64,000 nt of DNA from Vulcanimicrobiota bacterium (GTDB lineage Bacteria > Pseudomonadota > Gammaproteobacteria > Xanthomonadales > Rhodanobacteraceae). The stretch is from NCBI GenBank assembly GCA_903970555.1, contig CAJCJD010000246.1, positions 62,001-126,000 of the forward strand. Direction: 5' to 3'. Of the stretch, positions 2,775 to 61,684 are shown one piece after another (the first letter of the stretch is position 1; every line of letters starts with the position of its first letter). Below the pieces are notes generated by a model. That model did no database searches. It saw only the letters and a program-made list of their open reading frames with translations, and was not told where the DNA came from. The position numbers and the translations under genes are program-made.

Positions 2775-2805
2775 TCGGATTGCCTTCTGGGAATCTTGCA
2801 TAGCA

Positions 2806-2893
2806 CGTCATCCCGGCGAACGCCGGGATCCAGTGTCTTGCGCTTCCATGCGTTAAAGACGCTGGGCCCCGGCTTTCGCCGGGGCGACGATGA
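2806..2893. repeat. REP-like inverted palindrome pair (BIME-like)
   Basis: Two GC-rich palindromes in opposite orientation: CCCGGCG-AA-CGCCGGG at 2812-2827 and CCCCGGC-TTTC-GCCGGGG at 2867-2884, flanked by cgtcat and cgacga. This is the layout of REP doublets found between genes in many gammaproteobacteria. A single related palindrome lies at 26438-26457. It sits just after the receptor stop codon and may also limit read-through or protect the mRNA 3' end. Confidence 0.75.
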
Positions 2894-2967
2894 AGTACGG
2901 GGCAACAAGATCGTTTTCCGGGGTGGCTCCATCGCGCCCCTTCGCAACCCATCACGACTAGGCAAGC

Positions 2968-4356
2968 ATGCAGGATTCCAACGTGCCCCAGAACGTTCGC
3001 GATAACGCCTTCCATCGTTCCATCGGCCTGTTCTCGGGAACCGCAATCAACATGACCCAGATGTGCGGCATCGGGCCGTTCATCACCATCCCCATCATGG
3101 TCGCGGCGATGGGTGGTCCGCAGGCCGTCATCGGTTGGATAGCCGGCGCCATCCTGGCCATGGCCGACGGCCTGGTGTGGGCCGAACTCGGTGCGGCCAT
3201 GCCGGGTTCCGGCGGAACGTATGTCTATCTGCGCGAAGCATTCCAGTACCGCACCGGCAAACTGATGCCATTCCTTTTCATCTGGACGATGTTGCTGGCG
3301 ATTCCCTTGCTGATGTCCACGGGCATCATCGGCATGGTGGAGTATCTGGGGTTCTTCTTTCCAAACTTGGGTTGGTGGTCGGTGCATGTCATCGGCTTGG
3401 CGGCGACTGCCATCGTTACGTGGCTGCTGTACCGTCGCATCGAATCGGTTCGCGCGATCACGATCGCGTTGTGGGTGATCATGCTGGTCTCCGTCGTCGG
3501 CGTGACGGCGGCAGGCTTCTCACACTTCCACTCAAGCTTCGCCTTCACCTATCCGCCCGGCGTATTTGGCAGCCACTTTTTCATGGGGCTTGGCGCCGGG
3601 TTGATCATCGGCATTTACGATTATCTAGGCTATAACACGACCGCCTACATCGGCGATGAGTTGCGCAATCCGGGGCGCACGATGCCCGGCACCATCATCG
3701 TCTCGGTGATCGCAATGATGTTTGTCTATCTCCTGCTCAACATAAGTGTGCTTGGCGTGGCGCCGTGGCAGGACATTGCCCAGTCCAAGTCGGTGGCTTC
3801 GCTGGTGGTGGAGCGTAGTTGGGGACATCTGGCCGCTGCCGTCATGACCGTGCTCATCATTGTGACTGCGTTCGCCTCGGTGTTCACCGGCCTGCTGGGT
3901 GGCTCGCGCGTGCCCTTTCAGGCATCGCACGACAAGGTGTTCCTATCCGTGTTCGGACGCTTGCATGCGAAGCACGGCTTCCCGCACGTGGCGTTGCTCA
4001 CGATGGGTGTGGTGACCGCCATTGGCACGTTCTTCGATTTGACTGAAGTCATCAACATGCTGCTGGCCGCGACCATCATCGTGCAGTCCATCGCGCAGGT
4101 CGCCGCACTGGTCGTGCTGCGCAAACGTCAACCCAACCTTGATCGCCCGCACAAGCAATGGCTTTACCCCGTGCCGTGCGTGATCGCGTTGTTGGGCTGG
4201 ATCTATGTGTATGTGTCTGCCTCCACGTTGTCGCTAATCCTGTCCAGCATATGGATCGTCGCCGGCCTCGTGGTATTTGCGGTCTGGGCCAAACTCAATC
4301 AATCGTGGCCGTTCGCGCCCGTTGAAATACACGAAACCTATCTTGAGAAACACTGA
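2968..4356 (+). CDS. APC-family amino acid/polyamine permease
   Basis: Inner-membrane secondary transporter of the amino acid-polyamine-organocation superfamily, 462 residues, the usual length. About twelve hydrophobic segments are visible. TM1 carries the unwound-helix pattern typical of APC carriers (MTQMCGIGPFITIPIM, about residues 31-46), and the motif GSGGTYVYLREAF follows the second helix. The start is the ATG at 2968, with only a weak ribosome site. It lies between the TonB receptor and a GH2 glycosidase and ends 4 nt before the latter starts, so the two are probably co-transcribed. An APC carrier rather than a sugar transporter is odd for a glycan locus. The substrate could be an amino acid, an amine or an amino sugar and cannot be read from sequence. 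Confidence 0.9.
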   Translation: MQDSNVPQNVRDNAFHRSIGLFSGTAINMTQMCGIGPFITIPIMVAAMGGPQAVIGWIAGAILAMADGLVWAELGAAMPGSGGTYVYLREAFQYRTGKLMPFLFIWTMLLAIPLLMSTGIIGMVEYLGFFFPNLGWWSVHVIGLAATAIVTWLLYRRIESVRAITIALWVIMLVSVVGVTAAGFSHFHSSFAFTYPPGVFGSHFFMGLGAGLIIGIYDYLGYNTTAYIGDELRNPGRTMPGTIIVSVIAMMFVYLLLNISVLGVAPWQDIAQSKSVASLVVERSWGHLAAAVMTVLIIVTAFASVFTGLLGGSRVPFQASHDKVFLSVFGRLHAKHGFPHVALLTMGVVTAIGTFFDLTEVINMLLAATIIVQSIAQVAALVVLRKRQPNLDRPHKQWLYPVPCVIALLGWIYVYVSASTLSLILSSIWIVAGLVVFAVWAKLNQSWPFAPVEIHETYLEKH

Positions 4357-4360
4357 CGCC

Positions 4361-7072
4361 ATGCAAACTCCAGCCAAGCACGCACTTTGGATGATGGCCG
4401 CGTTAGCTGTATTAGCGTCGCCGCCTGCTCACGCCCAAACGACCTACGCACCCACTCAGGTAAACGTCGACGCCGGCTCGGTCACCGCCATTGGTCATTG
4501 GCAGATTCAAGACAGCGCTAAAGCGCAGCAAGATGGCGCTGAAATTTCCTCGACGGGTTTCTCGACTGAGGACTGGTATCCGGTCAGTGGCCGAGCAACC
4601 GTGATGGCGGGGTTGTTGGAAAACGGCACGTACAAGAACGACGTGTTCTACAGCGACAATCTGCGTGCCGTGCAGGTGCCAGACTCCAGCGGCAATCTTT
4701 TCGTGACGTCTTGGTGGTATCGCGCCGAATTCATGCTGTCGAAGGACTTGTCCGGACGGCATACGCTGCTGCGTACGAACGGCATGATCGCGAGCGCCGA
4801 CGTGTGGATCAACGGGCACCAGGTCGCCGACCATGCTGAGGTCGCCGGCGCCTATCCCGTGCATGCGTTCGACGTGACGCGCTGGGTGCACGCGGGCGCC
4901 AACGTTCTCGCCATGCGCGTGCATCCGGCCGATCCAAGAAAGAGTTTGTCCATGGGATGGGTGGATTGGAACCCCACGCCTCCGGATAACAACATGGGAC
5001 CATGGCGCGGCGTGGAGATCGTGCAGACTGGACCGGTCGAATTGAGCTTCCCTCATGTTCTTTCGACGCTGCCTCTGCCCGATCTCTCCCGCGCCACACT
5101 TACCGTGAAGGTAGACGCGAAGAACCTTGATACGGTCGCGCATGATGCGACGATCACCGGCACAGTAGCCGGCGTTCCCCTGCAACAAACCGTGCACCTC
5201 GCGCCCGGAGAAACGCGGATCGTATCGTTCTCGCCCAGCACAACACCGGGCCTCGCACTGGATCATCCAAAGATTTGGTGGCCCGTTGGCATGGGCGAAC
5301 ATCCGCTGTACCAACTCGCGATGACCGCTGCGGTCGATGGCGCAACGTCCGACAAGGCCACGGCGACGTTCGGCATACGCAACGTCAGTTCGAGTCTGAC
5401 GAAACAGGGTTATCGCCAGTTCTTCATCAATGGGAAACCCGTGCTGATCCGCGGCGGCGGCTGGGCGCCGGACATATTCCTGCGCGACGATCCCGCGCGC
5501 ATGGAATCCGAGTTCAACTATGTTCTCAACCTCGGCCTTAACGCTATCCGCAGCGAAGGCAAGTTGGAGAATCAGCGTTTCTACGACCTCGCCGACCGCG
5601 ACGGCATTTTGATACTGGCAGGCTGGGAATGCTGCGACAAATGGGAGTCGGCCGCCAAGACCGGCGGCGCGCCCTGGACCGCAGCCGACATGAAAGTGGC
5701 CGAAGATTCCATGGCCAGCGAAGCGCGCCTGCTGCGCAACCATCCATCTGTGATCGGCTTCCTGATCGGCAGCGATAACCCACCTCCGCCGCCCATCGCG
5801 AAGATGTATGTCGACACGTTGCGCGCAGCTGACTGGTCATTGCCGATCATCTCGGCGGCTGTCGCAAAAGGCACAGCGGAAGCCGGGCCTTCCGGCCTGA
5901 AGATGGACGGTCCTTACGACTGGATACCGCCGTCGTACTGGTATGCCGACAAGTTGGGCGGTGCATTCGGCTTCGATTCGGAAGTCAGCGCAGGCGCGGA
6001 TATTCCACGCTTGGAAGATGTGCGGCGCATGCTGTCGCCGCAGGAGCAGGAAGCATTGTGGAAATACCCGGAGGCAAGGCAATACCACGCGTCTGCGGAC
6101 TGGTCGACCTTCGCCGTGTTGACGCCGTTCGACAAGGCGCTAGCCGCTCGCTACGGCGCACCCACGAATCTTGCCGATTATGTCGCCAAGGCCCAGCTCG
6201 ACAACTACGACAACGTCCGCGCACAGTTCGAAGCGTTCAACGCGCACATGGATGCCGATAAGCCAGCAACCGGCGTGATCTACTGGATGCTCAACAATGC
6301 GTGGCCTTCGTTGCACTGGCATCTGTACGACTACTTCATGAATCCTGCGGGCGCTTATTTCGGCGCCAAGAAAGCCAACGAGTTGGTGCACATCCAGTAT
6401 TCGTATGACTCAAAAAGTATCGTGCTGGTAAACCACGCGCTTGACGATGTCCATGACCTGCAAGCGAACATCCGTGTGCGCAATCTGGACGGTAGCGTGC
6501 GTTACGAGAAGCACCTGCAGAACATCGACCTTGCGGGCAACCACACGCGGTCATTGGCAACACTGCCGACCATCGCCGGCCTTTCGTCCGCGTACTTCAT
6601 AGAACTTGAACTCGCCTCTTCCGACGGCAAGCCCGTCAGCCGGAACGTCTACTGGCTATCCACACGCGCGGACGTGCTCGACTGGGCGAATTCGAACTGG
6701 TATCTCACCCCGCTTACGCAATACGCAGACCTAACCGCGCTGCGATCCTTGCCGCCCGCGACAAGCGTGGTCCACGCAACGACACGACGTGAGGGAAACG
6801 ATGACATCACCATAGTCACGCTGTCCGTGCCCGCATCGTCCAAGGCCGTGGCGCTGTTCCAGCACGTATCGATCAGGCGTGGCGCTCACGGCAACCTTGC
6901 GCTGCCCATACTGTGGAATGACAATGACGTCACGCTTTGGCCCGGTGAGTCGATGGTTCTGACCGCGCGATACGCATCGCAGGGAACGGCCGCACCCGTC
7001 GTCGAAGTGAGTGGTTGGAACGTTCCGACCCAAAGCGTGCCGGCTGTCACCATGCAGGGAACAGATCATTGA
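4361..7072 (+). CDS. Secreted GH2 exo-beta-D-glucosaminidase-like glycosidase
   Basis: Retaining glycoside hydrolase of family 2, 903 residues. The start at 4361 gives a clean signal peptide (MQTPAKHALWMMAALAVLAS, then PPAHAQ); the open frame runs further upstream but overlaps the permease. The order is a jelly-roll sugar-binding domain (about 30-220), an Ig-like sandwich (about 230-350), a TIM barrel from the RGGGWAPDIFLRDD motif (about 365-680), then C-terminal beta domains. In the exo-beta-D-glucosaminidase (CsxA) subgroup the acid/base is Asp in an SD motif rather than Glu. That arrangement is seen here: IGSD gives D472 and FGFDSE gives E541 as predicted nucleophile. A beta-mannosidase-like activity is an alternative. 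The LacI gene starts 16 nt after it. Confidence 0.88.
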   Translation: MQTPAKHALWMMAALAVLASPPAHAQTTYAPTQVNVDAGSVTAIGHWQIQDSAKAQQDGAEISSTGFSTEDWYPVSGRATVMAGLLENGTYKNDVFYSDNLRAVQVPDSSGNLFVTSWWYRAEFMLSKDLSGRHTLLRTNGMIASADVWINGHQVADHAEVAGAYPVHAFDVTRWVHAGANVLAMRVHPADPRKSLSMGWVDWNPTPPDNNMGPWRGVEIVQTGPVELSFPHVLSTLPLPDLSRATLTVKVDAKNLDTVAHDATITGTVAGVPLQQTVHLAPGETRIVSFSPSTTPGLALDHPKIWWPVGMGEHPLYQLAMTAAVDGATSDKATATFGIRNVSSSLTKQGYRQFFINGKPVLIRGGGWAPDIFLRDDPARMESEFNYVLNLGLNAIRSEGKLENQRFYDLADRDGILILAGWECCDKWESAAKTGGAPWTAADMKVAEDSMASEARLLRNHPSVIGFLIGSDNPPPPPIAKMYVDTLRAADWSLPIISAAVAKGTAEAGPSGLKMDGPYDWIPPSYWYADKLGGAFGFDSEVSAGADIPRLEDVRRMLSPQEQEALWKYPEARQYHASADWSTFAVLTPFDKALAARYGAPTNLADYVAKAQLDNYDNVRAQFEAFNAHMDADKPATGVIYWMLNNAWPSLHWHLYDYFMNPAGAYFGAKKANELVHIQYSYDSKSIVLVNHALDDVHDLQANIRVRNLDGSVRYEKHLQNIDLAGNHTRSLATLPTIAGLSSAYFIELELASSDGKPVSRNVYWLSTRADVLDWANSNWYLTPLTQYADLTALRSLPPATSVVHATTRREGNDDITIVTLSVPASSKAVALFQHVSIRRGAHGNLALPILWNDNDVTLWPGESMVLTARYASQGTAAPVVEVSGWNVPTQSVPAVTMQGTDH

Positions 7073-7088
7073 AGACGCAAAGGCTTCC

Positions 7089-8096
7089 ATGTCACGCGTG
7101 ACCATCAACGATGTAGCCCGGGCGTCGGACACCTCGAAGAAGACCGTATCGCGCGTGCTAAACAACGAACCGAACGTGCGCGACTCGGTGCGCGAGCGCG
7201 TGCTTTCGGCTGTGGCAGAACTCAACTACCGGCCGCTCACTTCGGCGCGCAGCCTCGCGACAAATCGGTCCTTCATGATCGGGCTGCTCTACGACAACTT
7301 GTCGCCGAGCTACATCATGGAAGTCCAGGCGGGCGTGCTGGAAGCGTGCGAGGCGCAGCAATACAGCATGATGGTGCAGCCGTTGGTGTCGACGGCGCCG
7401 GACTTTGTCGAACGCGTCGAGAGCATTCTCTGGCGGCACCGGCCCGATGGACTGATCCTTACGCCTCCCATCACCGACCACCCGGAACTGCTAAAACATC
7501 TGCGCAAGAGCGATCTTCCGTTTGCCTCGATCGCTCCGCGCCAACCCAAGGGCTGCATCGGCGTGATGCTACGCGAGCGCGAAGCGGCTGCGGCCATGGT
7601 GGAGCACCTTGCATCGCTGGGCCATCGTCGCATCGCCCACATCCTGGGCGACCCCAAGCATGGCGCAGGTATCTGGCGCCTCGCCGGTTACCGCGATGGC
7701 TTGAAGCGTGTGGGGTTGGAAGAAGACCCCGCGTATATGGTGCAGGGGCGTTTTTCTTTCGAGTCGGGTGTGGAAGCCGCACGCCGGTTGCTCGCACTAA
7801 AGCAACGGCCAACCGCCATTTTCGCGGCCGACGATGACATGGCCGTCGGCGCGATCTGGGCTGCGGCAGAGGCTGGCGTGTCGGTTCCCGGCGACATGTC
7901 CATTTGCGGCTTCGACGACACCACCATCGCGACGCAAGTGTGGCCATTGCTGACCACCGTCCACCAGCCCGTGCGCGAAATGGGTAAGCGCGCCACCGAA
8001 GAGTTACTGCTACGCGTGCTGGGCAAAGGCGAAGCCAGCATGGTCGAAGTCGGCTACGAAATGCGTATGCGCGCATCGACGGCACCCGCGCCTTGA
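7089..8096 (+). CDS. LacI-family transcriptional regulator
   Basis: Sugar-responsive DNA-binding repressor or activator of 335 residues. The start at 7089 (MSRVTINDVARASDTSKKTV) places the LacI helix-turn-helix at the extreme N terminus as in the family; the longer frame from 7011 overlaps the GH2 gene and is not needed. The hinge helix region (RPLTSARSLATNRS) and a periplasmic-binding-protein-like effector domain follow, with the motif SICGFDDTTIATQVWPLLTT near the end. It lies 16 nt after the GH2 gene and probably controls the receptor/permease/glycosidase genes in response to a released sugar. Its operator is probably upstream of the receptor, outside the window. Confidence 0.93.
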   Translation: MSRVTINDVARASDTSKKTVSRVLNNEPNVRDSVRERVLSAVAELNYRPLTSARSLATNRSFMIGLLYDNLSPSYIMEVQAGVLEACEAQQYSMMVQPLVSTAPDFVERVESILWRHRPDGLILTPPITDHPELLKHLRKSDLPFASIAPRQPKGCIGVMLREREAAAAMVEHLASLGHRRIAHILGDPKHGAGIWRLAGYRDGLKRVGLEEDPAYMVQGRFSFESGVEAARRLLALKQRPTAIFAADDDMAVGAIWAAAEAGVSVPGDMSICGFDDTTIATQVWPLLTTVHQPVREMGKRATEELLLRVLGKGEASMVEVGYEMRMRASTAPAP

Positions 8097-53058: not shown

Positions 53059-53121
53059 ACACGTCGATGATCGCTACGCCAGCGATTTCGCCCAGGTCTC
53101 CTTAAGAGAATGAGGTTCCCC

Positions 53122-53733
53122 ATGCCTGGCAACGTAAGCGATATACCCGGCTACACCTATGGTGCATCCACCGTCGCTGCATCCTCCGCGACGCTCGATG
53201 ACCTGCAACGACTGAAGATATCCGTCGACTTTACCGAGCAAGATGAGCGCTATCTGCGCATGGCCGGAACCGTGCTGGAAGATCAGGTCGAGAGGATCGT
53301 GAATCACTGGCGCGCCAATATCATCGCCGGCATTCCTCATCTTGCCAGGCACTCACGAAGCCTCGACGGGTCACCGCTGCCCGATTACCTGGCACGCAGC
53401 AATCGCCGGTTTCAGCAATGGATTCTCGACACGTGCCTGCGCCCGTATGACCAAGACTGGCTTAACTATCAGCAGGAAATCGCTCTGAGGCATACAAGCG
53501 TCAAGAAGAACCAGACAGACAACGTCGTTTCTACATCCTATGTTCCGTACAGCGACATCCTGGCTTTCCTGGTCGTTCTCAACGACACGATAAAACCGTA
53601 TCTGGAAGCCAAGGGACATAACGAATCCGACGTAGCGCACATGCACGAGGCCTGGCGAAAATCGATGCACGTGCAAATGGCTCTTTGGGCGAAGCCCTAT
53701 ATGGAAATTGAAAGTTCGAGCCTGGAGTGGTGA
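53122..53733 (+). CDS. Protoglobin (single-domain haem globin)
   Basis: A 203-residue globin of the protoglobin family. The start at 53122 has GAGG 6 nt upstream; ATG 53110 has its purine tract too close. The N terminus carries the family signature DIPGYTYG. The predicted proximal haem ligand is H124 in EIALRHTSVKKNQTD; the following segment YVPYSDILAFLVVLNDTIKP and the C-terminal helices fit the extended globin fold. There is no sensor output domain, so it may bind O2, CO or NO itself. It stands alone, convergent with the tandem-HTH LysR gene. Confidence 0.88.
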   Translation: MPGNVSDIPGYTYGASTVAASSATLDDLQRLKISVDFTEQDERYLRMAGTVLEDQVERIVNHWRANIIAGIPHLARHSRSLDGSPLPDYLARSNRRFQQWILDTCLRPYDQDWLNYQQEIALRHTSVKKNQTDNVVSTSYVPYSDILAFLVVLNDTIKPYLEAKGHNESDVAHMHEAWRKSMHVQMALWAKPYMEIESSSLEW

Positions 53734-53778: not shown

Positions 53779-55002
53779 TCACGGCAATAGGCGGGTGCGT
53801 TCGGCACCCATCTCGCGCGCCATGGTTGCGAAACGTTCCTGCATGGACGTAGGACGCCAGTCGCTGCGCCATGTGATAGCGATGCGCCGACGCAGAACGC
53901 CGCCCTCGATGGGAATTTCGGCCAAAGCACCCGCCTCGCGCTCGAACAGGAACTGGTCGAGCGACATCAAGGTCAGCCATTCGCCTTTAAGCATAAGTCC
54001 GCGCGCGACCAACACCGAGCCGCATTCGATGCGCGGTGTTGGCGGCTCAACGCCGTGGCTGCGGAACAGTGTCTCCCAATTTCGCCGCATCGGTACGCCA
54101 ACTGCCGGCACTGCCCAGGGATAGGCGAACAGGTCCTGGATGGTGACGACTTTGCTGCGCCTTAGAGGATGAGCGCTGTTGCCAACGATAAAGAGCTCGT
54201 CATCGAACAGCGCTTCCTGTTCCACGTCGTTGGCGGGTGCCGGATAGCGCATCGCGCCGCCCATCATCAGGTCGATATCGCCGTGGCGTAGTGCGATCAG
54301 TAACTCACCGTAAGGCGCTTCGCGCACTTCTACCGATGCACCTGGATGCTCTTGCGCGAATCGCGCGAGCAAATCGGGCAGGAAAACGGTGCGCGCCATC
54401 GGCAACGTACCAATGCTGATGCGACCGACGCCGTGTTTGCCAGCGGCGATTTCGTCCAGCCCCGTGCGCAACTCCGCCAACATCAGGCGCACGAAGCGCA
54501 CGAAACGGCTGGCTAAATCGGTGGGCCGCACGGCGCGTCCCGCTCGCACCAGCAATTCCGCACCCAGCGCGTCCTGCAGTTCTTGCACTGCGCGATAGAC
54601 GGCCGGTTGCGATAGCCCGATTTGTTCGGCAGCGGCGGCGTAGCTGCTGCAGTGTTCGACCGCCACCAGCGCGCGTAGCTGAACCATGCTGACACGACGC
54701 TCGATATGACTCAGCGGCGCGAGGCGCGCCGAGCGACGCACCAGGCGCACGCCTTGAGTGAGATAACGCAATGCACGTTCGGCACGAATGATCCAGGCGA
54801 GCCCCGTCGTAGTCGGACGCATGCCAACGGCGCGGCGTTCGAACAGGCGAATTTCAAGATTACGTTCGAGCTTACCGACAGCTTGAGCCAACGCTGGCTG
54901 CGAAAGGCTGACCTGTTCGGCCGCAGCGCTCATGCTGCCGGCACGAGCGATGACGCCGAGTGCGTCCAAGTGGCGAAGGTTCAGGGCATAAATGTGATCC
55001 AT
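53779..55002 (-). CDS. LysR-family regulator with two N-terminal HTH domains
   Basis: A 407-residue regulator, about 100 longer than usual, from the ATG at 55002. Two LysR-type HTH segments occur in tandem: LRHLDALGVIARAGSMSAAA with SQPALAQAVGKLERNL (about 8-65), and VQLRALVAVEHCSSYAAAAE with SQPAVYRAVQELQDAL (about 105-165). A normal substrate-binding domain follows (about 195-400; GRISIGTLPMARTVFLPDLL). It is divergent from the six-gene catabolic operon and is its probable activator. A candidate T-N11-A site lies at 55012-55026, next to its start. Confidence 0.92.
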   Translation of the reverse strand: MDHIYALNLRHLDALGVIARAGSMSAAAEQVSLSQPALAQAVGKLERNLEIRLFERRAVGMRPTTTGLAWIIRAERALRYLTQGVRLVRRSARLAPLSHIERRVSMVQLRALVAVEHCSSYAAAAEQIGLSQPAVYRAVQELQDALGAELLVRAGRAVRPTDLASRFVRFVRLMLAELRTGLDEIAAGKHGVGRISIGTLPMARTVFLPDLLARFAQEHPGASVEVREAPYGELLIALRHGDIDLMMGGAMRYPAPANDVEQEALFDDELFIVGNSAHPLRRSKVVTIQDLFAYPWAVPAVGVPMRRNWETLFRSHGVEPPTPRIECGSVLVARGLMLKGEWLTLMSLDQFLFEREAGALAEIPIEGGVLRRRIAITWRSDWRPTSMQERFATMAREMGAERTRLLP

Positions 55003-55011
55003 ACACAATCA

Positions 55012-55026: not shown

Positions 55027-55257
55027 AGGCCGACAATAAAACGAATTTGGCTTCACGGCCGTTTTCGAGCAGATTTCGTTTCCGAAACGCCAGGGGCCTA
55101 AAGCCCCTATGACAGTCGATATCAAACTCGAAAGTCGGGACGATGCCTTTATTTGCGCAACGCAGCATTAAAGGCGTCCGGTCTACCGTTTTCCCACATG
55201 TGTTGATTGTTGCGGCGCAAGAGAAACACCACGACCAATAGTGAACTGACCACCCTG

Positions 55258-56115
55258 ATGAACATCATTGATTCCCACCTGCACGCCATCGCTTCCGACA
55301 CGATGACCTATCCGAAGAACCCGATCGGCGGTCATCAATCCGCGTGGTCGCAAGAACGTCCGGTCAATGCGGAAGGCGTGATCAAGGCGCTGGATGTCGC
55401 CGGTATTGCAAAGGCCGTGGTGGTGCAGGCCTCGACCGTATACGGGCACGACAACAGCTATGTAGCCGATGCAGTGCGTGCCTACCCGCATCGCCTGGTC
55501 GGCGTGTATTCGATCGATGCGTTGGCGCCGGATGCGGTGGAGCGGATCGATCATTGGGAGGCTCAAGGCCTGCACGGCTTTCGACTGTTTACCACGGGCA
55601 CCACCATGCCCGGCCAATCGGATTGGCTTGGTCACAAAGATTCCTATCCGGCGTGGGCGCATGCCGAAAAGCTGGGCATTCCCGTCTGCTTGCAGATGAC
55701 CATGCAGGGTTTGCCAACGCTGCGCACGTTGCTGGAACATTTTCCCAACTCGCGCGTGTTACTGGATCACTGCGCCCGTCCGGACCTGGATGACGGCGCA
55801 CCATACAAGGCCGCGCAAGCGTTGTTCGACATGGCCCATTACAAAGGTGTTCACCTCAAGCTGACCAATCGCACGTTGGCCGCAGCTGCGCAGGGCCGCT
55901 CCAATCCGACTGCTTTCCTGGAAAAGCTGGTGAGCGCCTTCGGTGCCGAACGCATTGCGTGGGGCTCCAACTTTCCAGCGGCGGAAGGTTCACTCGATGA
56001 ACTGGTGACGACGGCACGCGACGTGTTGTCGGGCTTGCCCAACGACCAGCAGGCGATGATTTTCAGCGGCACCGTCGAACGCATTTATCCGGCGCTGCGA
56101 GGAGTGGCGGCATGA
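55258..56115 (+). CDS. Amidohydrolase-2 family TIM-barrel protein
   Basis: A 285-residue metal-dependent hydrolase-like protein, first gene of the catabolic operon. The start at 55258 (MNIIDSHLHAIASD) places the H7-x-H9 metal motif at the N terminus. Later segments include VVVQASTVYGHDNSYVADAV, VLLDHCARPDLDDG, and WGSNFP. The last motif has N238 where many family members have a metal-binding Asp (GSDFP). The fold matches the LigI (2-pyrone-4,6-dicarboxylate lactonase) group, which fits the pathway, but LigI identity is not certain. It overlaps the next gene by 4 nt. Confidence 0.85.
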   Translation: MNIIDSHLHAIASDTMTYPKNPIGGHQSAWSQERPVNAEGVIKALDVAGIAKAVVVQASTVYGHDNSYVADAVRAYPHRLVGVYSIDALAPDAVERIDHWEAQGLHGFRLFTTGTTMPGQSDWLGHKDSYPAWAHAEKLGIPVCLQMTMQGLPTLRTLLEHFPNSRVLLDHCARPDLDDGAPYKAAQALFDMAHYKGVHLKLTNRTLAAAAQGRSNPTAFLEKLVSAFGAERIAWGSNFPAAEGSLDELVTTARDVLSGLPNDQQAMIFSGTVERIYPALRGVAA

Positions 56116-57011
56116 GCCAGCCGGTCCATCTGCATGCCGTGTTGAAGACCACCGCGCTGACCACGCCGCTGAAGAACGGTGCGCTCCAGAGCGATCGGGT
56201 GGTGCTCGATTTCACCGAGATCGACCCTATCCACAAAGCCTTTGCGCCGATGGTGCGCAACGCGAAGTTCGACATCTCTGAATTGGCGATCGTCACGGCG
56301 CTGCAGGCGATTGCTTTCAAGCGGCCGATCGTGTTGCTGCCGGTGGTGGTGGCGTCGCGTTTCCAGCGCGGCTGCTTGGTGTCGTATCGCCCGCATGGCG
56401 ACGTCAAACCCGAACAACTGCGCGGCAAGCGCATCGGCGTACGCTCATACACGCAGACCACCGGCATGTGGGTGCGCGCGCATCTGGTCGAAGATTACGG
56501 CTTGGCCACGCCCGATATCCGTTGGATCACCCATGATCTGGCGCACGTTGAGCAATATCAGGATCCGCGTTTCGTTGAACATCCGGCGCATGACAAGAGC
56601 CTGCTGGACATGCTGCACGATGGCGACATCGATGCGGCGATCTTCGGCAACGACTTGCCTGAGGGCCATGACTACGTGCCGGTGATCGCCGATGCCAAAG
56701 CCAACGATCTTGCTTGGGCGCAGCAGCATGGCTTTGTGCCGATTAACCATGTGGTAGCTGCGAGCGCTGATATCTGTACGCGTGAGCCGGCTGCCGTGCG
56801 TGCCGCCTATGGTTTGTTGGCGCAGGCCGAAAGCGTGCAGGCCACGGCTGGAGACGGCCCACGCAAGACTTTGTCCGGCTTTGACGCCTTGCGCGGCCCG
56901 CTGGAATGGATCATCGACGCCTGCTTGGAGCAGGCGCTGCTGCCGCGAAAGCTGAGCCTCGACGAGGTATTAGGGCCCGCTCACGCCTTGCTGAAAGGCG
57001 AGATAGCCTGA
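56112..57011 (+). CDS. 4,5-dihydroxyphthalate decarboxylase-like protein
   Basis: A 299-residue protein related to Pht5-type 4,5-dihydroxyphthalate decarboxylases, which share the NMT1/ABC-substrate-binding fold. Supporting stretches are PEQLRGKRIGVRSYTQTTGM with WVRAHL, then AHVEQYQDPRFVE and LLDMLHDGDIDAAIFGND. There is no signal peptide, so it is cytoplasmic and more likely an enzyme than a transporter component. It would convert an aromatic dicarboxylate to protocatechuate or act on a related acid; the real substrate is unknown. Its ATG overlaps the amidohydrolase stop codon (ATGA). Confidence 0.82.
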   Translation: MSQPVHLHAVLKTTALTTPLKNGALQSDRVVLDFTEIDPIHKAFAPMVRNAKFDISELAIVTALQAIAFKRPIVLLPVVVASRFQRGCLVSYRPHGDVKPEQLRGKRIGVRSYTQTTGMWVRAHLVEDYGLATPDIRWITHDLAHVEQYQDPRFVEHPAHDKSLLDMLHDGDIDAAIFGNDLPEGHDYVPVIADAKANDLAWAQQHGFVPINHVVAASADICTREPAAVRAAYGLLAQAESVQATAGDGPRKTLSGFDALRGPLEWIIDACLEQALLPRKLSLDEVLGPAHALLKGEIA

Positions 57012-57074
57012 CATTGTCGATCGCGCTGGCGCACGAAGCGTTGACGCGGCACCTGCCAAGAGTTCAGCTTCACC

Positions 57075-58364
57075 ATGACCCGACCGGTAAACCTCGACAT
57101 GCACCTGACCACGCAACGGCGTCCGTTCTATCGCGACCTGACTTTCCAGGTGGTGGTGGGTATGGTGTTGGGCGTTTTGGTCGGTGTGCTGTGGCCGGAT
57201 ATCGGCACCCGTCTCAAGCCGCTGGGCGATATTTTTATCCGCCTAATTCAGATGGTGGTAGGACTGATCATCTTCTGCACGGTCACGCACGGCATTGCCA
57301 GCGTGCGCGACCTAGGCAAGGTTGGGCGCATCGCACTCAAGGCGATGGTGTATTTCGAACTCGTCACCAGCGTGGCGTTGGTGATTGGCCTGGTCGCCAT
57401 CAATGTGCTCAAGCCTGGCGTGGGCATGCATGTCGACCCGGCGTTGCTCACGCACGGCATGAGTACGGGCGATCAAGCAGCGGCACCGCACAGCTTTGGC
57501 GAGTTCCTCACCAATTTGGTGCCGACATCCGCCATCGGTGCATTCAGCAACGGCGACATCCTGCAGATTCTGCTTTTTTCGGTGTTGTTTGCTTGCGGCT
57601 TGGCCAGTCTTGGTGACAACGCGCAACCGGTGTTGCGCATTGTGGATGTCATCCGCCAGACCTTGTTCTGGATCATTCGCGTGGTGATGAAAATCGCGCC
57701 CATCGCCGCCTTCGGCGCGATCGCTTTCACCACCGCCAAGTTCGGACTCAACAGCCTGGTGCCGCTCGCCAAACTGGTGGCCGAATTCGCACTCACGTGC
57801 GTCGTGTTCCTGCTGGTGGTACTTGCTCCTATTTCGCGCGTATGCGGTTTTAGCCTGCTCAAACTGATGCGTTACTTCCGCGAGGAGCTGGTGTTGGTGC
57901 TCGGTACCAGCTCGTCGGAGAGCGTGTTTCCGCAGCTCACCGAAAAACTCACGCGCCTGGGCGTGGACGAATCAGTGGTCGGCATGGTGTTGCCTACTGC
58001 CTACAGCTTCAATCATGACGGCACCTGCCTTTATTTCGCAGCGGTAGCCGTATTCCTTGCGCAGGCTACCGGTACCGCGCTTGGCTGGCAGGCACAGTTG
58101 GGCCTGTTGTTGATTTTGTTGGTCACATCCAAAGGTGGCGCGGGCGTTTCCGGCTCCGCTATCGCGGTATTGACCATGACCTTGGCGGCGACCAAGACCA
58201 TTCCGGTCGGTAGCGTCGCTTTGATACTCGGCGTGCATCGCATTCTGTCGGCGGGGTTCGTGTTCGTGAACATCGTCGGCAATTGCGTTGCGACCGTGGC
58301 GGTTGGCTATTGGGAGAAAGCGGTCGACCGCAACAAGCTTCGACAAGAACTACAGGCAGGTTAA
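57075..58364 (+). CDS. DctA-like dicarboxylate/cation symporter
   Basis: A 429-residue carrier of the DAACS family, close in length to E. coli DctA, with about eight membrane helices and two re-entrant hairpins. The serine-rich hairpin motif GTSSSESVFPQL and the TM7 motif NHDGT (usually NLDGT/NMDGT) are present. In TM8, where DctA has SEARALTN and the archaeal homologue has DMGRTMVN, this protein has SAGFVFVN. The carboxylate-binding Arg is therefore replaced by F395, so the substrate may differ from C4-dicarboxylates. It supplies the catabolic operon. Confidence 0.9.
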   Translation: MTRPVNLDMHLTTQRRPFYRDLTFQVVVGMVLGVLVGVLWPDIGTRLKPLGDIFIRLIQMVVGLIIFCTVTHGIASVRDLGKVGRIALKAMVYFELVTSVALVIGLVAINVLKPGVGMHVDPALLTHGMSTGDQAAAPHSFGEFLTNLVPTSAIGAFSNGDILQILLFSVLFACGLASLGDNAQPVLRIVDVIRQTLFWIIRVVMKIAPIAAFGAIAFTTAKFGLNSLVPLAKLVAEFALTCVVFLLVVLAPISRVCGFSLLKLMRYFREELVLVLGTSSSESVFPQLTEKLTRLGVDESVVGMVLPTAYSFNHDGTCLYFAAVAVFLAQATGTALGWQAQLGLLLILLVTSKGGAGVSGSAIAVLTMTLAATKTIPVGSVALILGVHRILSAGFVFVNIVGNCVATVAVGYWEKAVDRNKLRQELQAG

Positions 58365-58442
58365 CAGGCAGTTCGATCATGCCTTCAAAACAACATGCAT
58401 CTCGCGGTTCCTATCGGCACCGCGATGGGGAGGGTCGCGTCA

Positions 58443-59933
58443 ATGAAAAGGCTGATGGCACGAAAATCGTTATACCTGAGTCTCGTCACACTGTTGCTTG
58501 CACCTGCCGTGCATGCGCAGAGCGCACAAAACACGCAGTCAGCGCAAAGCGGTGGCCCGAATGCGAATTGGGCCGATGCCTATACCCCATCGCAGCAGAA
58601 CACCGGCAATGGCATCGTTAACCCTTCCGACACACCGGTCGCTGCGCGACCGGCTTCCAAGGAGCCGGCGTTGCCGCGCTCGAAGTTGGTGCAGAAGCTG
58701 CTCGACGATGGCGTCAATATCCGCGCCAGCGAAATTGATCAGTACGCCAAGAACACCACCGGCGGTGTCAAACAGGGTAGCCATAACGTTGGCCAGTTCT
58801 ATATCGGTGCGGACTTCGATCTTGGCAAGATCTTCGGTTGGTCCGGCGCCAGCCTCCATTTCACTGCGTATCGTGATTACGGGTTGAGCCTCAACGCGCT
58901 CGTCACTGGCACCTACAACAAACAGCAGTACATCTATAAGAACGCCTTTCCACGCTGGCACTTGGGCCTGTTCTCTTACGAGCAGAAGGCATTCGATGAT
59001 CGCCTGGATGTCCAAGTCGGTCGCCTGGGCAGTACCACCTACTTCGGCCACCTGGTGGTCAACTGCCAGTTCGTCTCGGCCAATACCTGCGGCGAGCCGC
59101 GAATGCTGGTGTCCGAAACCGGACTCAGCCTGCTGCCTTCGGCGACGTGGGGTGGCAACGTGAAGTTCAAGACGACCGAGAACACTTATGTCGATGTCGG
59201 CGCATTCGAGGTCAATCCCGACGTACAGCCCAGCAACGGCCTGGATTGGGAAATCAAGCATTCGACCGGCTATACGTTGCCGATCGAATTCGGCTGGGCG
59301 CAGAACGACCCCAAGACCGTGCAGTATCCGTTTGAGTTGAAAGGCGGCGTCTATGAGAGCACCGCTCCGCTGACCGACATCAACTTGAACACGAAGGGCC
59401 AGCCTCTGGGCATCGATGGCGGCAAGGCTGCCACCGATAACCACATTCGCGATGGTTTCTACGTCATGGGCGACAAGGTCATCTGGCGTCCGGACCCGGA
59501 CTCGCCGCGTAGCTTCAACGTCTTCGGCGGTTGGGTGCAGCAGTTGGAAGATCAGGAGATCATGCATCAGCAGATCTTTACCGGTTTCGTCATGACCGGA
59601 CCGCTTTCGTTCCGCCCCTATGACACGCTCGGCCTGAATATCTCCGAGTTCGAAATGACACCGGAAGAGCAAGCCTATCTTGCCGAAGTACGCAAGAAAG
59701 AAGGCGGTACCGGCGTAAACGCGCTGCATCAAACCGACTACGACCTGACCTACAGCATTCACCTCGTCAAAGGTCTGGAGCTGATGCCGAGCTTGCAATA
59801 CATCGTGCATCCGGACAATTCAAGTCTCCCGAAAACGTCGGTGCTACCGAAGAACTTGTTTGTATACGCGATCGGCCTGCGCGTGGACATCGGAGTGCTG
59901 ATGGGCTTCCGGCCTGCCGCCGCCAATGATTGA
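58443..59933 (+). CDS. OprB-like carbohydrate/aromatic-acid porin
   Basis: A 496-residue outer-membrane barrel protein. The start at 58443 has GGAGGG 8-9 nt upstream and gives a signal peptide ([17 protein letters not shown]). The mature part has a low-complexity N terminus and OprB-family segments ([20 protein letters not shown] and [15 protein letters not shown]), ending in an aromatic strand ([16 protein letters not shown]). OprB members are known from sugar uptake; here the operon suggests an acid substrate, as with the GalP porin in gallate loci, which belongs to a different porin family. It lies between the carrier and aldolase genes. Confidence 0.88.
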
Positions 59934-59953
59934 TGTTGCGAAGAGGATGGGAT

Positions 59954-60625
59954 ATGTCAGTCGTAGTAACTCGTATTGAACGCGCCGACGCCAACGTGAT
60001 CGATGGTCTAGCTCGCGCTGGCGTCGCTACCGTGCATGAGGCGCAGGGCCGCACCGGTCTGATGCATTCCAGTCTTCGCCCAATCTACGGTGGCGCGCGT
60101 ATCGCCGGCTCGGCTGTCACTGTGCTGATGCCGCCGGGCGACAACTGGATGATGCATGTGGCGATCGAGCAGTTACGTAAAGGCGATCTGCTTATCGCCG
60201 CAACCACCAGCCCTTGCGAAGACGGCTATTTCGGCGACTTGCTGGCCACCTCGGCCAAAGCGCGCGGCTGCCGTGGCCTGATCATCGACGCCGGCGTGCG
60301 TGACGTGCGTGATCTCACCGCCATGGGTTTCCCCGTTTGGAGCCGTGCAATCCATGCGCAAGGCACGGTAAAGGAAACGCTCGGCTCGGTGAACGTGCCG
60401 GTGGTCTGTGGCGGCGCGCTGGTCAATCCTGGCGACGTGGTAGTTGCCGACGACGACGGTATTTGTGTAGTGCCGCGTGCCGACGCTTTCCAAGCGTTGG
60501 AAAAAGCCAAGGAACGCGAAGCCAGAGAGGACGAAAAACGAGAACGTCTGGCTTCAGGCGAGCTGGGCCTGGACATCTACAACATGCGTGAGCGCTTGGC
60601 GCAGAAAGGCCTTAAATATGTCTGA
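59954..60625 (+). CDS. ligK: 4-carboxy-4-hydroxy-2-oxoadipate aldolase (LigK/GalC-type)
   Basis: A 223-residue class II aldolase of the RraA-like fold, the length of known CHA/HMG aldolases. The start at 59954 has GAGG 7 nt upstream; the longer frame lacks a site. The active-site block is [20 protein letters not shown], with the RD pair that binds substrate and metal, plus [15 protein letters not shown] and [10 protein letters not shown]. It cleaves 4-carboxy-4-hydroxy-2-oxoadipate to pyruvate and oxaloacetate, the last step of protocatechuate/gallate 4,5-cleavage. It sits next to ligJ, which makes its substrate. A general RraA-like role is less likely in this context. Confidence 0.9.
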
Positions 60626-60661
60626 ACTGACGTCTTCCGCATTCAAGAATGCAAGCATGCC

Positions 60662-61684
60662 ATGATCATCGACTGCCACGGACACTACACCACCGCACCG
60701 AAAGGTCACGATGCTTTTCGCGATGCGCAACTGAAGCACTTCGACGATTCCTCGCAGCCGTTGCCGATCTATCCCAACATCTCCGACGAGGAGATCCGCG
60801 AAAGCATTGAAGCCCATCAACTGCGCCTGCTTCGCGAACGCGGTTTAGACATGACGATCTTTTCGCCGCGCGCCAGCACGATGGCACACCATGAAGGTGA
60901 TGAGGTAGTCAGCCAGATATGGACGCGTCACTGTAATGATCTGATCGCGCGAGTGGTCGAGCTCTACCCGGAAGCCTTTATTGGCGTGTGCCAACTGCCA
61001 CAATCGCCTGGGGTGACGATCAAGAATTCAATCGCCGAACTGGAACGCTGCGTCAGCGAACTAGGTTTCGTCGGTTGCAATCTCAATCCCGATCCGTCGG
61101 GCGGACATTGGAATGGGCCGCCGCTTACCGACCGCGCATGGTATCCATTCTTCGAGAAGATGGTGGAGCTGGATGTGCCGGCCATGATTCACGTATCTGG
61201 CAGCTGCAACACCAACTTCCACGCTACGGGCGCGCATTACATCAACGCCGACACCACTGCGTTCATGCAGTTTCTGCAAGGCGATTTATTTACGGACTTC
61301 CCAAGCTTGCGCTTCATCATCCCGCACGGCGGAGGCGCGGTGCCGTATCACTGGGGCCGTTACCGTGGCCTGGCCGACATGTTGAAGAAGCCGCCGCTAA
61401 GCGAGCATGTCATGAAGAATGTGTACTTCGATACCTGCGTCTACCATCAGCCGGGTATCGATTTGCTGTTCAAGGTCATCGACATCGACAACATCCTGTT
61501 CGGTTCGGAAATGGTGGGTGCCGTGCGCGGCATCGACCCGACCACCGGCAACTATTTCGACGACACCCTCCGCTATATCGACTCACTGAACATGTCCGCC
61601 GAAGACAGGCACAAGGTTTTGGAAGGCAATGCGCGTCGGATCTATCCACGCTTAGACGCGCAACTGAAGGCACGCGGCAAGTAA
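60662..61684 (+). CDS. ligJ: 4-oxalomesaconate hydratase (LigJ-type)
   Basis: A 340-residue amidohydrolase-superfamily protein, matching LigJ in length. The metal motif is at the N terminus (MIIDCHGHYTTAPKGHD). Other supporting blocks are FSPRASTMAHHEGDEVV, CNLNPDPSGGHWNGPPLTDR, MIHVSGSCN, and IIPHGGGAVPYHWGRYRGLA, with GSEMVGAVRGIDPTTG near the end. It hydrates 4-oxalomesaconate to 4-carboxy-4-hydroxy-2-oxoadipate, which LigK then cleaves. It is the last gene of the operon and starts 36 nt after ligK. Confidence 0.93.
   Translation: MIIDCHGHYTTAPKGHDAFRDAQLKHFDDSSQPLPIYPNISDEEIRESIEAHQLRLLRERGLDMTIFSPRASTMAHHEGDEVVSQIWTRHCNDLIARVVELYPEAFIGVCQLPQSPGVTIKNSIAELERCVSELGFVGCNLNPDPSGGHWNGPPLTDRAWYPFFEKMVELDVPAMIHVSGSCNTNFHATGAHYINADTTAFMQFLQGDLFTDFPSLRFIIPHGGGAVPYHWGRYRGLADMLKKPPLSEHVMKNVYFDTCVYHQPGIDLLFKVIDIDNILFGSEMVGAVRGIDPTTGNYFDDTLRYIDSLNMSAEDRHKVLEGNARRIYPRLDAQLKARGK

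Follow-up and report, generated by a model that had tools for sequence, protein, structure and literature searches.

A LigJ–LigK operon with its own carrier and porin: a probable oxygenase-free entry of external polycarboxylates into the lower protocatechuate pathway

Gene content of the operon

In this work, we analysed a six-gene operon at positions 55258-61684 of a 64,000-nucleotide stretch of contig CAJCJD010000246.1 (the window), which encodes LigJ and LigK, two enzymes of the lower protocatechuate pathway. The source assembly (4.53 Mb in 247 contigs, 91.7% complete) defines the scope of every absence from the own genome reported below. The six genes lie on the + strand in the order AMH–PHT5–DctA-like carrier–OprB porin–LigK–LigJ, with intergenic gaps of -4, 63, 30, -4 and 36 bases, and a LysR-type regulator gene (53779-55008, - strand) is divergent from them. 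Here, AMH designates a cog3618-type amidohydrolase-fold enzyme, and PHT5 a 4,5-dihydroxyphthalate-decarboxylase-like protein. The first-pass annotation of this DNA had named the same six kinds of product and pointed to the lack of a dioxygenase, a semialdehyde dehydrogenase and an isomerase in the operon; the profile and structure matches given below bear out both statements.

The identity of LigJ and LigK is clear from their sequences. LigJ (60662-61684, +), the 4-oxalomesaconate (2-keto-4-carboxy-3-hexenedioate, KCH) hydratase, was aligned over its length with the solved LigJ 6dxq (E 1e-173), and the residues H6, H8, H177 and E283, which we take to be the metal ligands, were conserved in 35 or 36 of the 36 LigJ rows in the alignment. 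LigK (59930-60625, +), the 4-carboxy-4-hydroxy-2-oxoadipate aldolase, scored 398 bits against NF006731 (cut-off 179) and 396 bits against TIGR02798, also above the cut-off, and matched the solved structure 3noj with E 1e-93; its start codon is uncertain, with an ATG a few codons further downstream. The transport genes code for a DctA-like SDF-family carrier (57075-58364, +; SDF family, 314 bits) and an OprB-type outer-membrane porin (58395-59933, +; PF04966, 218 bits). AMH (55258-56115, +) matched the Pfam family Amidohydro_2 with 111 bits, while the closest solved relative of PHT5 (56112-57011, +) by sequence was the 4,5-dihydroxyphthalate decarboxylase 9jp7 (E 9e-15).

The regulator (409 aa) is PcaQ-like, with 210 bits against TIGR02424 (PcaQ), under the cut-off of 303.8. 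It bears two winged helix-turn-helix (HTH) domains in tandem (Pfam HTH_1 in two stretches) followed by one substrate-binding domain (LysR_substrate), and the two N-terminal copies align mutually with E 7e-10. To our knowledge, this layout is unusual for the LysR family. The tandem HTH was also present in both LysR relatives checked, those of loci L027 (6430-7683) and L065 (3-1127), which cover both kinds of operon compared below. The motif TCGA-N8-TCGA at 55116-55131 (no strand assigned) was kept in 6/6 aligned intergenic regions, i.e., those of the window and L007-L011, and may serve as an operator. A simple promoter scan gave 0 promoter-like sites vs. 3.3 expected, and a terminator scan stayed at chance level (9 found vs. 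8.7 expected). Just past the 3′ end of the regulator gene, a protoglobin (PF11563, 94 bits) is encoded at 53110-53733, with no evident link to the operon.

AMH and PHT5 in the place of LigI and LigU

The amidohydrolase of the first-pass annotation can be placed more precisely in the cog3618 fold group, that of the hydrolases of 2-pyrone-4,6-dicarboxylate (PDC). The top fold matches of its predicted structure (pLDDT 89) were solved or putative PDC hydrolases, tied with the cog3618 proteins 4dlf and 4do7 (VIA Z 28.3-25.9), and, according to the entry titles, solved LigI variants D248A/D248N appeared among the matches. The LigI residues used for comparison, with numbers and roles that we assume, were H31, H33, R124, R130, Y156, H180, R183 and D248, the last taken as catalytic. 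In an alignment of 62 rows (the window and 61 hits, paralogues included and hits covering less than about 150 residues excluded), AMH retains the HxH motif (H9, H11), D172-H173, K203 and R111, the counterpart of the Arg at LigI position 124. N240 of AMH is Asn in 62/62 rows, whereas the corresponding LigI D248 is Asp in 14/14 LigI rows; in addition, AMH has Gln at the position of LigI Y156, and Thr or Ser replaces LigI R130 in 61 of the 62 rows. The invariance of the Asn where LigI has Asp suggests a changed reaction rather than decay. AMH was not accepted as LigI itself, given 19-23% identity in the fold alignment and no D248, and the NCBIfam names 4-sulfomuconolactone hydrolase and fuconolactonase were rejected because their scores fell far under the cut-offs. 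The chemistry ascribed to AMH below is a prediction from sequence and structural model.

PHT5 has a periplasmic-binding-protein fold, and its predicted structure (pLDDT 93) resembled 9jp7 over the whole chain, with Z 30.2 over 289 residues vs. 18.1 for the next match. It differs from this decarboxylase in its sequence (22-24% identity) and in its setting, an operon without phthalate dioxygenase genes. According to the alignment, PHT5 shares E57, Y113, T116, W120, R122, W138 and H213 with 9jp7, while R111, Q115, T117 and N212 are conserved among PHT5 relatives but different in 9jp7. The nearest relatives come from a Lysobacterales metagenome-assembled genome (89%), then from four Dyella species (81-87%), which marks the window as DNA of a Dyella-like bacterium; the full operon is also present in Dyella japonica DSM 16301 (L010). 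A vinylogous decarboxylation by PHT5 would set the double bond where LigJ needs it, such that LigU would not be needed; a pyrone tricarboxylate, as the counterpart of 4,5-dihydroxyphthalate in the PDC series, may fit as the substrate.

A comparison with other LigJ operons was made on 23 loci labelled with the same queries: 20 LigJ regions (from 20 of 32 matching genomes) plus L027, L065 and L071. In nine of them, all from Lysobacterales (L065 at 1145-7700, L128, L129, L132, L135 and L137-L140), we found a sister operon, LysR | LigK-LigU-DctA-OprB-LigJ-LigI, and a LigA domain was found in 0/9 of their genomes. Its LigI and LigU were recognized from solved relatives: L128 LigI matched the solved PDC hydrolase 4d8l with E 3.5e-105, and L065 LigU matched the solved oxalomesaconate delta-isomerase 6p3j with E 7e-158 and scored above the tautomerase equivalog cut-off. 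Conversely, where LigK-LigU-LigJ operons were found without LigI or a carrier, the LigA domain was present in 6/6 genomes read, as it was in 3/3 genomes read with LigB near LigJ. LigJ operons thus sort into those with a dioxygenase in the genome and no operon carrier found, and those with a carrier and a porin in the operon and no LigA domain. Two loci fit this sorting poorly. L141 combines LigK-LigU-LigJ-LigI with a LigA domain, and the search for a carrier found none there; L145, from a genome that lacks a LigA domain, has a distantly related LigJ-like protein (39%) together with a GalA-like match (38%). Judged by its genes, the carrier-type LigI/LigU operon is likely a dioxygenase-free route for the use of external PDC. 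Such a compound is available in nature: a passage of PMC9415522 gives PDC at 0.1-2% in Rosoideae genera and at 1-1.7% of strawberry-leaf dry matter, and an excerpt of PMC10154247 reports its secretion by Comamonas. Pyrone dicarboxylates therefore exist outside cells, and PDC is a plausible food.

The window operon shares with this sister operon a related LysR (with tandem HTH where checked), an SDF carrier, OprB, LigK, LigJ and the lack of a LigA domain; AMH–PHT5 stands beside them in the place of LigI–LigU. This position, together with the PDC-hydrolase fold of AMH and its retained HxH, D172-H173 and R111, would be expected if AMH and PHT5 were an alternative LigI and LigU and the substrate were PDC itself; LigI is also absent (E<=1e-50) from the own genome and from five close relatives (G061-G065). 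We nevertheless consider it unlikely that PDC is the substrate. Genome-wide searches covered 50 genomes, the own one and 49 of the genomes of the 59 loci described in the next section (those of L026, L040, L041, L045, L047, L049, L050, L055, L061 and L064 fell outside). A LigI-type protein (E<=1e-50) was found in 27 of these 50 AMH–PHT5 genomes, in 18 of the 27 at >=60% identity, and in some it belongs to a full PDC-type operon. The two operons adjoin in Stenotrophomonas sp. MMGLT7 (L065), where AMH-PHT5-DctA-OprB-LigK stands next to a LigI operon with the single LigJ of the genome, while in Dyella monticola they are on separate contigs (L013, L128). The replacements in AMH at the positions of LigI D248 (Asn), Y156 (Gln) and R130 (Thr/Ser) likewise argue against AMH as an alternative LigI, and PHT5 resembles a decarboxylase, not an isomerase.

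The carriers point in the same direction. The AMH-type carriers have NHDGT in 39/39 rows and HxxxxxxFVF in 38/39, whereas the PDC-type carriers have NLDGT and HRILAEGLTF in 9/9 rows, and the two lie on opposite sides of a 100/100 branch in the tree. Group labels were assigned from the identity of each row to the carrier of the window, and they agree with the operon type; only the 100/100 split was used and not the rooting, because the branch of the outgroup row was aberrant (length 10). In both types, His replaces the Asp of solved aspartate/glutamate carriers, and the Arg of those carriers is missing; the window carrier has His and Phe at these substrate-site positions, presumably D390 and R397 of GltPh, in alignments that included no canonical DctA row. 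As the two operons with their different carriers can share one genome, the window operon probably acts on a relative of PDC rather than on PDC itself.

Oxalomesaconate hydration, probably without ring cleavage

The first-pass annotation had proposed looking for ligAB/galA, ligC and galD in the rest of the genome; no dioxygenase and dehydrogenase set was found, either nearby or genome-wide. The own genome has 0 LigA/GalA-type domains (PF07746), 0 members of the PrpF family (LigU/GalD) and 0 GalB (E<=1e-30), and the search for LigC gave no convincing match (the best one has 29% identity, at family level, E 2e-14). Its sole LigB-domain (PF02900) protein, on C205, is nearest to 4,5-DOPA dioxygenase (NF007914, 199 bits, cut-off 233) and was rejected as a ring-cleavage enzyme for the LigJ route. 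An intradiol dioxygenase-family gene is present on C101. Products of intradiol cleavage do not enter at LigJ. Within the limits of this 91.7% complete assembly, we rejected a dioxygenase elsewhere in the genome, with phthalate dioxygenases outside the search.

To see in which company AMH–PHT5 occurs, 59 loci with a PHT5 relative were collected from a scan of 84,980 species' genomes, which reaches close relatives via short patterns and may omit records near the own genome. They belong to Proteobacteria, Actinobacteria and one member of Clostridiales. The flanks were up to 10 kb, some of them cut by contig ends, and a gene counted as present in a locus may stand at any place in the stretch, so that it need not adjoin the pair (e.g., L052, L060). 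AMH was over the 150-bit cut in 55/59 loci; L026 and L040 have pieces of AMH next to a contig end, and AMH was not found in L057 and L061. A carrier gene was present in 50/59 loci (SDF, TctA or TctC, the latter two types assigned by Pfam on one example each), and a LysR relative with at least 90 bits in 42/59. A porin was found in 31/59, of OprB type in 18 and Porin_4 type in 13; the loci of Streptomyces and Amycolatopsis yielded no porin, which agrees with their lack of an outer membrane. As for the lower pathway, LigJ was found in 34 loci and GalB in six (LigJ or GalB in 40/59), LigK in 25 and an HpcH/HpaI-type aldolase in 14. No LigB/GalA relative passed the cut (150/200 bits) in the available stretch of any of the 59 loci.

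GalB is a PIG-L-fold hydratase, non-homologous to LigJ but with the same activity, and it fills the hydratase slot in five proteobacterial loci (L012, L014, L015, L025 and L032; L014 GalB vs. 5cgz, E 6.5e-98). At the scale of whole genomes, LigJ (E<=1e-60) was present in 41/50 AMH–PHT5 genomes, and the remaining 9/9 have GalB (E<=1e-30). In the own order, LigJ was found in 32/398 genomes, the own genome included. To lessen the circularity of this test, the 19 PHT5 loci in which no neighbouring hydratase passed the cut were examined; of these, 15 genomes were searched, and all 15 have LigJ or GalB. The LigA domain was found in 13/50 genomes and was absent from 37/50. Since all 50 have LigJ or GalB and 13 a LigA domain, AMH–PHT5 is linked with the hydration of oxalomesaconate and, in most genomes, not with ring cleavage.

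These data bear on a further explanation, that the operon belongs to an ordinary gallate, protocatechuate or phthalate pathway as its lower part, that the upper genes, located at another place in the genome, were missed or are divergent, and that PHT5 acts as the decarboxylase of 4,5-dihydroxyphthalate. The relationship of PHT5 to that decarboxylase, the 13 genomes with a LigA-domain gene somewhere and the intradiol dioxygenase-family gene of the own genome are consistent with it. However, the LigA domain is missing from the own genome and 36 others, the 59 loci hold no LigB/GalA relative over the cut, the own genome has neither LigU nor a convincing LigC (phthalate dioxygenases not searched for), and intradiol products do not lead into the LigJ step. 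The Clostridiales locus L059 (2436-20849) also speaks against this explanation, which we regard as quite improbable: AMH (41%) and PHT5 (35%) occur there beside two distant GalB relatives (one with 5cgz E 5e-37, the other a PIG-L family match) and a LigK relative scoring under the family cut-off, the locus further encodes an aconitase-type protein and a TRAP-type carrier, and its genome lacks a LigA domain. L059 is perhaps an anaerobic form of the pathway. Genes for a 2-oxoacid ferredoxin oxidoreductase-like protein (by eye), a CoA-transferase and a carboxyltransferase were also seen in this locus.

The binding-protein fold of PHT5 and its matches to SsuA, TauA and CmpA (Z about 15-18) would suit a mere substrate-binding protein that leaves the conversion to AMH alone. 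This reading is very improbable, since the matches to binding proteins (none over 18.1) are far below that to the decarboxylase, SDF carriers are generally known as secondary carriers that use no binding protein, no obvious signal peptide is seen by eye at the N-terminus of PHT5, and PHT5 accompanies AMH whatever the type of carrier.

Further neighbours were noted in single groups. In the alphaproteobacterial loci L051 and L053-L056, AMH-PHT5-LigJ is surrounded by a second PHT5 paralogue, two more conserved genes (of the MmgE/PrpD family in L051), an HpcH/HpaI aldolase and a carrier in which TctA and TctB are fused. The neighbours in Alphaproteobacteria and Nocardia (MmgE/PrpD, HpcH/HpaI aldolase, TctAB, ABC carriers, SDR, FAA hydrolase) did not converge on one compound.

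The proposed route and its meaning

Taken together, the results lead us to propose, with a probability of roughly three in four, that the operon serves to take up a preformed polycarboxylate of the pyrone-dicarboxylate type from outside the cell and to degrade it via LigJ and LigK, without a ring-cleaving oxygenase. At the sequence level, the proposal builds on LigJ, LigK, the carrier, the porin and the regulator, on the lack of a LigA/GalA domain and on the co-occurrence with a hydratase in all genomes tested. Under the control of the tandem-HTH LysR, the porin and the DctA-like carrier would take the polycarboxylate up, and AMH and PHT5 would jointly convert it to the LigJ substrate, (3Z)-2-keto-4-carboxy-3-hexenedioate/oxalomesaconate, thereby replacing LigI and LigU. 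AMH would most likely handle a ring/lactone or enol form, and PHT5 would most likely remove a carboxyl group or move a proton, making LigU unnecessary. LigJ would then hydrate the product, and LigK would cleave the hydrate to pyruvate and oxaloacetate. Of the two options raised by the first-pass annotation, uptake of a polycarboxylate is thus supported over a new aromatic entry route by the carrier in 50/59 loci, LigJ/GalB in 50/50 genomes and the parallel PDC operon, but its supposition that the compound feeds directly into the LigJ step falls short, as AMH and PHT5 probably convert the compound beforehand. Something of the aromatic option may survive, in that AMH–PHT5 may act on a possibly pseudo-aromatic compound.

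Several points weigh against this proposal. The absence of the LigI Asp makes a lactonase role of AMH doubtful, and the window carrier barely clears the NCBI DctA cut-off (PRK01663, 518 bits vs. 513). The carrier and the porin could in principle import an aromatic precursor, and a dioxygenase could still have been missed, because the genome is 91.7% complete in 247 contigs. The co-occurrence can be compared with a background frequency for LigJ only, not for GalB, and among the 15 loci with no hydratase nearby, L033 bears a truncated piece of LigJ at the end of its contig. Thirteen genomes have a LigA domain, and in at least one, G081 (source of L028), the LigJ that was found belongs to a GalA-LigJ-LigK operon, L071, such that co-occurrence alone does not prove the use of LigJ by AMH–PHT5 there. 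L071 (Burkholderia sp. Ac-20379), where GalA adjoins LigJ and LigK, is in itself an ordinary gallate operon with LigJ replacing GalB.

As to the compound, we advance a more specific idea only tentatively, holding it somewhat less probable than an even chance: AMH–PHT5 may form a so far undescribed entry route that needs no oxygen and accepts an isomer-like or more highly carboxylated (CO2-richer) relative of PDC, e.g., a pyrone tricarboxylate. In this route, an Asp-less enzyme of the PDC-hydrolase fold and a Pht5-type decarboxylase would make the substrate of LigJ or GalB, thus allowing bacteria, perhaps anaerobes among them, to use pseudo-aromatic polycarboxylates without a ring-cleaving oxygenase. 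On general biochemical grounds, we could devise no path that leads from chelidonate or from other plant pyrones to the substrate of LigJ. Parapyruvate, which LigK can cleave according to a part of PMC11951559, was rejected as an input since it would need neither LigJ nor GalB.

We regard the system as a branch, free of a dioxygenase, that joins a known lower pathway through two uncharacterised entry enzymes. With the lower part of protocatechuate 4,5-cleavage (LigI-LigU-LigJ-LigK) it shares LigJ, LigK and, in AMH, the fold of LigI, but no LigAB and no convincing LigC were found for it, and it has AMH and PHT5 instead of LigI and LigU and brings its own carrier and porin. The gallate pathway of Pseudomonas putida (GalA, GalD, GalB and an aldolase) converges with it on the hydration of oxalomesaconate and aldol cleavage; unlike that pathway, the window uses LigJ, and GalA, GalD and GalB were not found in the own genome. 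The LigI-LigU carrier operon differs in these two enzymes and in the carrier motif (NLDGT vs. NHDGT of the window). The riboflavin catabolism enzymes LumW-LumY-LumX, as outlined in part of PMC12746152, follow a similar logic of pyrone hydrolase, hydratase and retro-aldolase, but that pathway has its own ring-opening dioxygenase, LumE, and yields pyruvate and acetoacetate. Homologues of ligJ and ligK are listed for Sodalis ligni in a section of PMC9241852. Neither an AMH–PHT5 operon nor a LigI–LigU operon with DctA/OprB was described in the titles and abstract openings searched, most subscription papers lying outside that search.

The work brings forward a protein of the LigI fold with the Asn exchange and a Pht5-like protein, both of them uncharacterised as enzymes, as well as two candidate carriers for PDC-type compounds, which are relevant to the production of PDC bioplastics; the LigI/LigU carrier operon of Lysobacterales is worth a separate study. 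The proposed route accounts for LigJ and LigK in genomes without a ring-cleaving enzyme, so that the presence of these two proteins is not proof of aromatic degradation. In other words, the operon points to a hidden class of nutrients, plant- or microbe-derived pyrone/enol polycarboxylates, that bacteria would eat through the end of a lignin pathway.

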